Shown here: in pieces, positions 6,889-28,620 of the stretch | Layout of the letters: each line of letters starts with the position of its first letter | How positions within the stretch are numbered: the stretch's first letter is position 1 | DNA from: a virus | IMG/VR virus record: IMGVR_UViG_3300042453_004093 | Span: 1-28,734 of that record | DNA: 28,734 nucleotides | Reading direction: 5' to 3' (one strand) | Position numbers and translations under genes: made by a program | Notes under the pieces: model-generated | Told to the model about the DNA's origin: nothing | What the model saw: the letters and a program-made list of their open reading frames with translations, nothing else | Database searches by the model: none

Positions 6889-7392
6889 ATGACCCGCACC
6901 CGTATCGACGTCCAACTCGCTGCAGCCGCCACCCTGCTCGACCGCCTGGCATCGTCGTACCCGTCGGCGCTCGGCCACCTCGCTCGCGAGCTGCTCGTCC
7001 TCGACGGGATGCCCGACCACACCAGCGGCGCCGGTATCACCCGTGGCGCCGGTAGCGACGTCGAGGCGCTCACCGCCGTCGAACGGGTCGCCGCCTCGAG
7101 GCTGCACTTCTCGACCGAGCTCGACACACTCCGCGAGGACGCCCAGGCGGTCATCGAGATGGTCGGCGCCCTGGCGCACATGATCGACCGGGCCATCGGC
7201 CTGCGTGCACCGATCGCTGTCGCCCGGTGTCGCGATTCGCTGCCCGGCCGGGATGGCGGCATGGAGTGGGGCGACCCGACGTGTGAGGAGATCCCGGCGA
7301 AGGCGGGGCTGTGCAGCGCCTGCTACCAGCGTGAGCGGCGCTGGCGCATTGGTGAGGGGCTGGCAGTTCGGGACGTCGTCGATGCTCGATGA
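6889..7392 (+). CDS. Hypothetical protein with C-terminal zinc-knuckle-like cysteines
   Basis: This encodes 167 residues from ATG 6889, chosen because AAAGG lies 7 nt upstream; ATGs at 6841 and 6874 are in frame but lack a clear site. The N-terminal two thirds are helical and alanine/leucine-rich. The C-terminus has a cysteine after VAVAR, then DPTCEE and GLCSACYQRERRW, which could make a four-cysteine zinc finger. Such treble-clef ends occur in small actinophage DNA-associated proteins. It follows the replication gene and precedes a possible transcription start. Function unknown. Confidence 0.75.
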   Translation: MTRTRIDVQLAAAATLLDRLASSYPSALGHLARELLVLDGMPDHTSGAGITRGAGSDVEALTAVERVAASRLHFSTELDTLREDAQAVIEMVGALAHMIDRAIGLRAPIAVARCRDSLPGRDGGMEWGDPTCEEIPAKAGLCSACYQRERRWRIGEGLAVRDVVDAR

Positions 7393-7418
7393 AACCTGGC
7401 CGCTGACCTGCAGGAATG

Positions 7419-7448
7419 TTGGACAATGAAACCAGAAACCTGTAGTCT
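7419..7448 (+). promoter_or_regulatory. Possible sigma-70-type promoter
   Basis: TTGGAC at 7419-7424 and TAGTCT at 7443-7448 are separated by 18 bp, in the 117-nt gap after the gene ending at 7392. The -10 keeps the three most conserved bases (TA...T). Predicted transcription would start near 7455, just before a long hairpin. Moderate evidence only. Confidence 0.4.
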
Positions 7449-7458
7449 CGGTGTAAGT

Positions 7459-7489
7459 CGCCCGTCGTGTGCAGCAGCACCGGCGGGCG
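7459..7489 (+). promoter_or_regulatory. Long hairpin in the 5' leader of the P-loop gene
   Basis: Bases 7459-7467 pair with 7481-7489 (9 pairs, one G-T), then after one bulged T, GTGC 7469-7472 pairs with GCAC 7477-7480 around an AGCA loop. No T-run follows, so it is not a typical terminator. It would form at the very 5' end of an mRNA from the promoter at 7419-7448. Confidence 0.55.
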
Positions 7490-7509
7490 TTGCCGTTGTC
7501 GGGGGTGGC

Positions 7510-7887
7510 GTGCGAGACGTTGTCCTGATCACCGGTGCCCCCGGTTCGGGCAAGTCGACCAAGGCACACGAACTCGCCCTTGCCGGCTATCTGCACCTCG
7601 AGCGAGAGCAGTACCCGGACGACGAAGCGTTCAGGTCGGCGGTCGAAACGCTGACCCGCACGAAGGCGAAGGTCGCCGTGGTGCGCTGCTGCTTCACCCC
7701 TGGCGAACTGGCCTACTGGCTGAAGTTCACCGGGGCGACACAGCACATCGAGCTCGACCCCGGGATCGACACGGCCCGCAGCAGAGTCGTCGAACGGGCC
7801 AATGCCGACTGGCGTGGCGAGTTGTGCGGCGTGGAGCGCTGGTATCGGGGCCGAGCCCAGACCGTCAGTGCTGGCAGATGGTGGTGA
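7510..7887 (+). CDS. P-loop ATPase/kinase-like protein
   Basis: A 125-residue protein from GTG 7510, which has a GGGGTGG ribosome binding site; an in-frame ATG at 7426 would add 28 unlikely residues encoded by the promoter and hairpin region. The Walker A GAPGSGKST is at residues 8-16, close to the N-terminus as in AAA_33/zeta-toxin-like and polynucleotide-kinase folds. Later elements (VAVVRCCFTP; HIELDPGIDTARSRV; a final ERWY) fit the nucleotide-kinase lid region. In actinophages, small P-loop genes of this kind often precede the HNH and terminase genes, as here. Substrate unknown. Confidence 0.82.
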   Translation: MRDVVLITGAPGSGKSTKAHELALAGYLHLEREQYPDDEAFRSAVETLTRTKAKVAVVRCCFTPGELAYWLKFTGATQHIELDPGIDTARSRVVERANADWRGELCGVERWYRGRAQTVSAGRWW

Positions 7888-7892
7888 CGATG

Positions 7893-8078
7893 CATGATCG
7901 TTGCATGCCCGCATGCATGACCATGCAGTCGCCATGCATGAAGGGGAGGGGGAGGGGCGTTCACGCACGCGAAACGCCTGGTAGAGCACCCCGCCGCTTC
8001 TCGTCTCTCTCTCCGAGGCTCACCGGGGGTGCATGGTCGGTGCATGAACATGCATGAATGCATGCATGGAGGTGCATG
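7893..8078. repeat. Phased inverted CATG-repeat element upstream of HNH/terminase (candidate cos/pac or origin)
   Basis: The left block has CATG units at 7893, 7904, 7912, 7916, 7922, 7933 and 7937. The right block has them at 8032, 8043, 8053, 8061, 8065 and 8075. TGCATGA occurs six times. Steps reading toward the centre on the left are 11, 8, 10, 11, and away from it on the right 11, 10, 8. The pattern CATGCATG-2-CATGCA-5-CATGCA on the left is matched by the reverse complement of the right block. The centre has G-rich runs (7942-7958) and CTTCTCGTCTCTCTCTCC (7997-8014). No convincing gene spans it. Confidence 0.7.
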
Positions 8079-8081
8079 ACG

Positions 8082-8369: not shown

Positions 8370-8614
8370 CCGACGACGATCGCCGCCTACGCCTGGAGCG
8401 GCTGCGTGACCAGCTCACCGCTGCGATCGAGGCGTGCAGCGAGAACATGCTCCCGCAACTGGCAGGGCAGTTGCGGGCGACGCTGGCCGATCTGGCGGCG
8501 TTGCCGGAGCCCGTCGAGAGGCAGTCACTCACCGATGAGCTCAAGCAGCGTCGTGCAGCGCGTCGGAGCGCAACGGCCCAGACTTCAGCACCTGCCTCCG
8601 GGTCAGGTCAGTAG
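8366..8614 (+). CDS. Putative terminase small subunit
   Basis: This encodes 82 residues from GTG 8366, overlapping the HNH stop (GTGA); a GTG at 8363 is an alternative adding one residue. The body is helical (RLRLERLRDQLTAAIEACSE; LRATLADLAALPEP), followed by a basic, disordered tail. I assign it by position between HNH and large terminase and by resemblance to small helical proteins at this place in actinophages. No helix-turn-helix is obvious. Its 3' end overlaps the large terminase gene by 80 nt in another frame, which is unusually long. Confidence 0.65.
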   Translation: MTDDDRRLRLERLRDQLTAAIEACSENMLPQLAGQLRATLADLAALPEPVERQSLTDELKQRRAARRSATAQTSAPASGSGQ

Positions 8615-9971
8615 CGCCGGGCAGGACGCCGTCGACTTCGCCGCTGCGTGCGGCCTGGTGCTCGACGACTGGCAGGCGTGGTGCCTGGACAAGATGCTGG
8701 GCGAGGACGCAGCCGGTCGGGCGTTGGCCACGACGGTGCTGCTGATCCTGCCCCGCCAGAACGGCAAGAACGCCGTGCTCGAGGCGCTGGAACTCTACGC
8801 CTTCTACGTGCTCGACGAGCCTCGCATCCTGCACACGGCTCACCTGGCCAAGACGGCCGCCGATCACATGCAGCGCATGGTGGCGCTGGTGCGATCGAAC
8901 CCCGACCTCGACGAGGTCACGCACGCCTACTTCGCCAACGGCAAAGAGGCGTTGCAGCGTCGGGACACCGGCGCCCGGTTGGAGTTCATCACCCGCGGCC
9001 GCAAGACGGCCCGTGGTGGTTCGCCGACCCGGGTGGTGTTCGACGAGGCGCTGTTCCTGCTCGACGAGCAGGTGCAGTCGATCCTCCCGGCGATGTCGGC
9101 GCAGTCGATGCGTGCCGACCCGCCGCAACTGATCTACACGTCGTCTGGCCCGTTGCCGGAGTCGGTGGTGCTTCACCGCCTGCGCCGTCAGGGCATGGCC
9201 GGCGAATCGCCCCGGATGTTCTTCGCCGAGTGGTCGTGCGAGGTCGGCACCGACCTGCGTGACCGTGACGGCTGGTACGAAGCGAATCCGGGTCTCGGCA
9301 TCCGCATCGGTGAGGACTGGATCGCTGGCACCGAGCTGGTGCAGATGTCGCCCGAAGGGTTCGCTCTCGAGCGGCTCGGCATCGTGGTCGCCGACGACGG
9401 TGCGCACGCCCATCTTCCCGGCTGGGAGGCGTGTCGTGCGTCGAAGTCGGCGCTGGACAAGCCGCCGACATCGGTGGCGGTGGCGGTCGGGCCTGGTGGC
9501 CAGTGGTCGTCGGTGGCTGCTGTCGGTGCGTGCGCCGACGGTCTGCCGTACGTCGAGCTGATCCGGCGGGAGCCGGGCACTGCGTGGCTGGTTGCCGAGG
9601 TGCAGGCCGCTCACCAGGCGGTCGGCGTGCCGATCGTGATCGACCCCAGGTCGCCGTCGGTGGGTGTGATCGACGAGATCAAGCGTTCCGGCGTGCCGGT
9701 CACCGAGTCGACCACGGCCGACTATCTGCGCTCATGCGCTGCTCTGCAGGACGCCGTCGGCAACGCCAAGGTGCGCCATTTCGGTGACCAACCGCTCGAC
9801 GCTGCCGTGGTCGGCGCCGACATCCGCTCCGTCGGTGAGGCGTGGGCCTGGTCACAGAAGGCGTCGACGGTGGACATCACACCGCTCGTCGCAGCGACGC
9901 TCGCTCTCGGCGCATGGAACGCACCGGCTGCCCCCGAATCCGAGGCTTGGGCCTCGCTGATCGACCTGTGA
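8535..9971 (+). CDS. Terminase large subunit
   Basis: A 478-residue protein from ATG 8535, the motor and nuclease that packages DNA through the portal. The ATPase part has Walker A-like LPRQNGKN (residues 72-79; Asn79 in place of the usual Thr/Ser) and Walker B VVFDEALFL with Asp170-Glu171. A coupling motif lies near IYTSSGP. The nuclease half keeps a final acidic residue in STVDITPLVAATLA, but the first strand reads SVAVAVGPGGQ (from residue 313), where actinophage terminases usually have Asp (AVDVSPD-type). No ribosome binding site precedes the start; coupling to the small subunit is likely. Confidence 0.9.
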   Translation: MSSSSVVQRVGAQRPRLQHLPPGQVSSAGQDAVDFAAACGLVLDDWQAWCLDKMLGEDAAGRALATTVLLILPRQNGKNAVLEALELYAFYVLDEPRILHTAHLAKTAADHMQRMVALVRSNPDLDEVTHAYFANGKEALQRRDTGARLEFITRGRKTARGGSPTRVVFDEALFLLDEQVQSILPAMSAQSMRADPPQLIYTSSGPLPESVVLHRLRRQGMAGESPRMFFAEWSCEVGTDLRDRDGWYEANPGLGIRIGEDWIAGTELVQMSPEGFALERLGIVVADDGAHAHLPGWEACRASKSALDKPPTSVAVAVGPGGQWSSVAAVGACADGLPYVELIRREPGTAWLVAEVQAAHQAVGVPIVIDPRSPSVGVIDEIKRSGVPVTESTTADYLRSCAALQDAVGNAKVRHFGDQPLDAAVVGADIRSVGEAWAWSQKASTVDITPLVAATLALGAWNAPAAPESEAWASLIDL

Positions 9972-28608: not shown

Positions 28609-28620
28609 GGGGGGGGGGGG
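28609..28620 (+). repeat. G12 homopolymer
   Basis: Twelve consecutive G lie 23 bp upstream of the putative -10 of the next gene. Such tracts are prone to slippage and to sequencing error. The length should therefore be treated as uncertain. Confidence 0.7.

Follow-up and report, generated by a model that had tools for sequence, protein, structure and literature searches.

A probable cos site between two mirrored CATG arrays beside the terminase genes of an uncultured virus

The CATG arrays and the genes around them

Why should a dense and ordered cluster of CATG tetranucleotides lie between a primase region and the terminase genes of a virus? The question is raised by positions 7893–8078 of a 28.7-kb IMG/VR virus record (IMGVR_UViG_3300042453_004093), whose whole stretch of 28,734 nucleotides is hereafter referred to as the window. 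The interval is preceded by a Prim-Pol/helicase gene about 1 kb away and by a conserved promoter-like block, to which this phage adds a small P-loop gene. Downstream, genes for an HNH protein, an 83-aa protein (TerS), the large terminase (TerL), the portal and the head follow in this order. A preliminary description had left two readings in competition: a replication origin used together with the upstream primase, or the cos/pac site recognized by the HNH-terminase complex.

The cluster itself is confirmed, with CATG occurring 14 times in the 186 bp rather than about 13 times as first counted. The units form two blocks of seven, with starts at 7893, 7904, 7912, 7916, 7922, 7933 and 7937 in the left block and at 8032, 8043, 8049, 8053, 8061, 8065 and 8075 in the right block. 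For comparison, the maximum reached in 200 simulated first-order Markov windows of the same dinucleotide make-up was 8 CATG per 186 bp. No hexamer of the window is more clustered than TGCATG, which has 10 of its 14 copies inside the interval. The successive starts, initially reported to be mostly 8, 10 or 11 bp apart, include 4- and 6-bp spacings as well. The spacing is indeed inverted between the blocks; it does not follow an 11-10-8 pattern, in which 6 and 4 had been merged, but reads 11-6-4-8 from the centre outward in both of them, with five matched pairs around one axis at 7984. The mirror match comprises five of seven coincidences (p ~0.016 against random placement, 0.08 against permuted gaps) and is a real pattern of only moderate significance. 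Placement of the units near one helix face is borne out to a modest degree, with phasing near 10.7 bp (R=0.52, p ~0.001, post hoc).

Two units of the window make an exact dyad, TGCATN4ATGCA: TGCATGACCATGCA at 7914 and TGCATGAACATGCA at 8041. The centre of the interval contains a G-rich run (7943–7957) and, between the two blocks, a pyrimidine tract (TCTCTCTC at 8003–8013), both in agreement with the preliminary description. Similar G-rich runs are found near the right ends of Sleepyhead, EmiRose and Babsiella and to the left of the core of a relative, L074, considered below. A GGCGTT/AACGCC hairpin at ~7958–7979 is broken in the relative L003 and was therefore not taken as functional. Features of the locus are collected in Table 1.

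Table 1. Features of the packaging locus in window coordinates
Feature	Position	Strand	Remarks
Promoter-like block TTGGAC-N18-TAGTCT	7419..7448	+	Upstream of packaging genes; promoter role suggested by sequence
Left TGCATG array	7890..7940	.	7 CATG, including dyad TGCATGACCATGCA at 7914–7927
G-rich run GGGGAGGGGGAGGGG	7943..7957	+	Left of cos
Probable cos core GAGCACCCCGCCGCTT^CTCGTCTCTCTCTCCGA	7984..8016	.	98.6% conserved in type A; related cores in L074, L125, L185/L186 and L152
Proposed single-stranded 3′ overhang	7989..7999	.	Length proposed by analogy with HK97
Pyrimidine tract GTCTCTCTCTCC	8003..8014	+	Right-flank signature common to genome left ends of many TerL relatives
Right TGCATG array	8030..8080	.	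7 CATG, including dyad TGCATGAACATGCA at 8041–8054; last unit overlaps HNH start codon
HNH endonuclease, 97 aa	8076..8369	+	Start 8076 or 8082, after GGAGG at 8068–8072
Small terminase (TerS), 83 aa	8363..8614	+	Orthologues match PHROG 1459 'terminase small subunit'
Large terminase (TerL)	8553..9971	+	phrog_9

With E 0.0055, the HNH homology of the window protein is weak, and its relative in L030 scores better (2e-4); a tblastn search with the HNH protein against cultured phages gave no match. The small terminase assignment comes from orthologues in L030, L149 and L161, which match PHROG 1459 at ~1e-7, and in most of the relatives tested a gene of the 83-aa family comes shortly before TerL. 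The predicted TerS model, of moderate confidence (mean pLDDT 73), consists of a helical hairpin and a basic C-terminal helix and contains no helix-turn-helix. A fold search with this model returned only chance coiled-coil matches with E above 1. The true start of TerL is probably 8553 or 8562; the listed ORF start at 8406 is too early and overlaps TerS.

Several further observations were made in the course of the annotation. The listed start of the P-loop ORF (window 7426–7887, MKPETCSL) falls within the conserved promoter block, so the true start is probably further down. A distant relative of the P-loop protein (33% identity) adjoins the packaging genes in L029/L033, and the P-loop gene is missing from L005. 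A run of 12 G at 28609–28620, near the end of the record, may have arisen where assembly or sequencing reached its limit. At L012:1–180, upstream of orf6841, there are dense GGGGCGCGCCCC-type inverted repeats, some of which are common to L083.

Contig ends and the core between the blocks

Relatives with TerL 95–99% identical to that of the window were compared for the positions of their contig ends. Contigs of three relatives of different sequence (L004/L061, L006 and L013/L060) begin exactly at window position 8000, which lies in non-repeated sequence between the array blocks, and one more contig (L010) begins at 8011. The other ends of the same full contigs are scattered. Nine other relatives and the window itself continue across 8000, which is compatible with circularised or concatemeric DNA. 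The coincident ends place the top-strand nick between 7999 and 8000.

Contig ends at an equivalent location were also observed outside this group. An 82.7-kb contig of a different phage (L066) stops at the homologous core, and a second contig (L074) runs across that core; the second end of L066 is not at cos. A contig end is located 100–700 bp upstream of TerL in 30 of the 57 non-redundant TerL relatives, and the next 600-bp bins contain 5, 5, 2 and 1. A pyrimidine tract of 9 or more nucleotides is present at 13 of 35 such contig ends, compared with a background of 0.5% at random positions. The L158 contig begins with CTTCCGATCT (L158:1–10), presumably the remnant of the end of an Illumina adapter, and its pyrimidine tract comes immediately after, as expected if the adapter had been ligated to a natural DNA end. 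Two pattern scans for left-side contig ends revealed only contigs that span the site or lead into other terminase types. Shared ends alone do not prove cos and may have other causes, since in a phage with another terminase (type B) the ends of two contigs from different samples (L079 and L084) are likewise no more than 1 nt apart, at an unrelated position that follows the promoter block by ~3.3 kb.

Sequences that span the site share a core pattern composed of ACCCCGC, a few variable bases and a TTTCYCTCYCC-like tract. The core reads ACCCCGCCGCTT^CTCGTCTCTCTCTCC in the window, ACCCCGCT^CTTTTCGTCTCCCTCCCC in L074, ACCCCGCCGCTGTCGTTTCCCTCCCC in L125, ACCCCGCCCGCACTCGTTTCCCTCTCC in L185/L186 and ACCCCGCTTGGTTTTTGCCTCTCCCC in L152. 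In L074 and L185/L186 the gene order core, HNH, TerS is the same as in the window, and neither a CATG array nor TGCAT dyads were found in these phages. Thus, the arrays are dispensable for cos function in general. Among cultured phages, DNA matches of the cos interval were at chance level only, and no cultured phage with this array was found.

Recurrence of the dyad, transfer of the array and competing explanations

In 65 relatives, the exact dyad is present in 7 copies at 5 loci within 1.2 kb upstream of TerL and is absent from 358 kb elsewhere, an enrichment that is not fully blind, since the motif was derived from the window and then tested and the relatives had been viewed by eye before the count. 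In L030, which carries a type C terminase with TerL 38% identical to that of the window, TGCATGACTATGCA lies 59 bp to the left and TGCATGACCATGCA 69 bp to the right of the inferred cut. The core of this phage is located between a P-loop gene and TerS, with HNH further upstream, and the dyads remain with the core and not with HNH. In L172 there is a dyad on either side of the core, and one related dyad with a 5-bp spacer lies ~2.4 kb away. The sole TGCATN3-5ATGCA sequence in the genome of EmiRose, a cultured Corynebacterium phage with annotated ends, is 152 bp away from the right end; near the left end, TGCAAAGTATGCA begins at a distance of 43 bp. No comparable array was found in the region upstream of TerL in prophage L077. 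Mapped as a trait on the TerL tree, the dyad requires 5 changes (mean of 6.6 after shuffling; 33 of 500 shuffles gave as few), a count blurred by contigs that start at cos and miss the left flank. This suggests that the dyad is recurrent rather than inherited once. The impression that such arrays are unusual for actinophage packaging regions holds for arrays of this density, but not for the motif as such, since the dyad is also found, more thinly spread, close to the cos sites of other phages.

Could the arrays instead serve as an operator or a 5′-UTR control element of the HNH-TerS-TerL operon, with proximity to cos being secondary or with both jobs combined? The array is preceded by the promoter-like block and followed by HNH, whose start codon overlaps the last unit, and a double role has a precedent in the SPP1 pac site, which overlaps promoters and the ribosome-binding site of the TerS gene (PMC6316719). 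However, the two blocks straddle the cos core, the dyads of L030 flank a core that is downstream of HNH, and those of L172 and EmiRose straddle the core or the genome end. We therefore regard a control element as an unlikely explanation. It is quite improbable that the interval is a pac-type (headful) site, where packaging would initiate and genome ends would be variable. Two-sided TerS-binding regions at a cut would resemble the pacL-pacC-pacR arrangement of SPP1, but independent contigs share one exact end base, and some of the TerL relatives are from cultured phages in which HNH genes are adjacent and the annotated ends lie close to TerL.

The origin reading, in which CATG units would be iterons for an initiator or primase encoded upstream, draws on the look of the clustered repeats and on the Prim-Pol/helicase gene nearby. 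Natural recombinants bear on this reading. Across the group, the upstream gene and the promoter block are nearly identical, yet the phages carry five different HNH-TerS-TerL modules. Over a 4.4-kb stretch that includes Prim-Pol, the L005 phage (type A, the terminase type of the window, with the array) matches the L034 phage (type B, without the array) at 99.6% identity, and the two diverge at the array start. L009 (type A, with the array) and L030 are 94.6% identical over 2.5 kb upstream, while the window and L003 combine a type A terminase with yet another upstream region. The array thus accompanies type A terminase in three upstream contexts with different Prim-Pols, and is missing beside an almost unchanged Prim-Pol block when the terminase type differs. 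We conclude that the array moves with the terminase module and not with the primase. In addition, the centre of the interval is G- and C-rich, without an AT-rich unwinding element. The GC skew, proposed earlier as a check, was computed and has no clear switch, which is uninformative. Given this dissociation from Prim-Pol, the origin reading has very little probability left. The ~120-bp block that holds the promoter-like element (window 7390–7510) is nearly identical across the five different terminase modules and may be a recombination hinge for module swaps.

Alignment of the interval across related phages, also proposed earlier, revealed that the CATG letters outlast the spacers. Within type A, the conservation of CATG letters versus spacers is 94% versus 75% in the left block and 99% versus 93% in the right block. 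In the most diverged relative (L013) the right block is 10 bp nearer the contig end and keeps its 11-6 start. It is hardly credible that the array is low-complexity noise and the contig ends are breaks of the kind that repeats can cause in assemblies: the shared end sits in non-repeated sequence, nine relatives assemble across the array, and unrelated contigs without an array end at the equivalent core.

The array itself and the association of the dyad with other cos regions are borne out by the data, as are the coincident ends at 8000, the core signature found with many terminase modules and the transfer of the array together with the terminase, and the interval is very probably a cos site. 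Of the two readings offered at the outset, the packaging site is the one upheld, in its cos form.

A model of the site and its relation to known packaging sites

Taken as a whole, the data are explained best, and we hold this with good confidence, by a cos site of the actinophage/HK97-like 'cos + HNH' type, whose cut is flanked by arrays that would bind a packaging protein or a host protein. Concatemeric DNA would be cut to unit length at the core, with cutting and packaging carried out by the HNH, TerS and TerL proteins encoded immediately downstream. The terminase would cut the core with the help of HNH, as proposed for HK97. With the top strand cut at 7999/8000, the bottom strand would probably be cut ~10 nt to the left, producing a GC-rich 3′ overhang.

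The CATG blocks would be mirror-placed arrays of putative protein-binding sites with the 14-bp dyad as a unit. It is likely that the arrays serve packaging. Most likely, a packaging protein or a host DNA-bending protein is held on both sides of the cut, and we infer that the resulting looped or wrapped complex would mark DNA for packaging and position the nicks. Chances are about even that the dyad is read by TerS or HNH or by a host factor. The latter would fit the TerS model, with no helix-turn-helix, and the sporadic recurrence of the dyad. A more general proposal is tentative: TGCATN4ATGCA may be an accessory signal for packaging that actinophage-type cos sites use in general and that divergent terminase lineages have acquired more than once. 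It would be bound on both sides of the cut, possibly by a DNA-bending protein of the host in the role that IHF has for lambda, and phages of the window's group would have expanded it into mirrored arrays.

Only for very few cos phages is it understood in detail how terminase recognizes phage DNA. The core described here (ACCCCGC...^...TTTCYCTCYCC) provides a cos signature at the sequence level for a large, mostly uncultured terminase family and offers means of placing genome ends in metagenomic contigs. The dyad is a specific motif whose reader can be searched for by ordinary binding tests; if that reader belongs to the host, it would play in actinobacteria the part of IHF at lambda cos. No earlier description of a two-sided, mirrored-array cos architecture was found in the openly accessible literature.

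Among well-studied systems, the HK97-type cos shares with the window a phrog_9 TerL, a small HNH gene adjoining the terminase genes and a short conserved region just to the right of the cut, here the pyrimidine tract. In HK97 the overhang is 3′ and 10 nt long, cutting is stimulated by the HNH protein gp74, and TerS binds at +15 to +29 (PMC11331095); the conserved tract of the window is at +4 to +15. HK97 TerS needs a single 15-bp site, whereas the window has dense mirrored dyad arrays on both sides. Unlike in HK97, TerS of the window is only 83 aa long, and the overhang is one we propose by analogy.

The lambda cosQ-cosN-cosB site likewise has repeated protein-binding sites (putative in the window) beside the cut and near the terminase genes. 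In lambda, three R sites and an IHF site are together in cosB (PMC4669245), whereas in the window there are seven units to either side of the cut, and no winged helix-turn-helix is present in the predicted TerS. Judged by the two-sided arrays and by this model, the site would not be of the lambda type, which is defined by R sites with an IHF site in cosB and by a winged helix-turn-helix TerS. Lactococcus 936-type cos is another repeat-flanked cohesive-end site, with inverted repeats, short direct repeats and putative terminase sites around the cohesive ends (PMC6105707), but its repeat is AATCT and the host group is different. In SPP1, TerS-binding regions of pacL-pacC-pacR lie on both sides of the cut and the site overlaps the promoter and ribosome-binding site of the packaging operon (PMC6316719). 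The two-sided flanking of the cut is similar; however, SPP1 packages by the headful mechanism, and independent contigs of the window's relatives share one exact end.

The EmiRose cos resembles the window site in having TGCA-type dyads 43 and 152 bp from annotated ends, with HNH at the right end and TerS-TerL at the left. It differs in having, instead of an array, a single short dyad on each side with either a 3-bp spacer or a mismatch, and in the position of HNH to the left of the cut. The cos core of the window is of a widespread kind, and the dense mirrored arrays on either side of it are an unusual elaboration.
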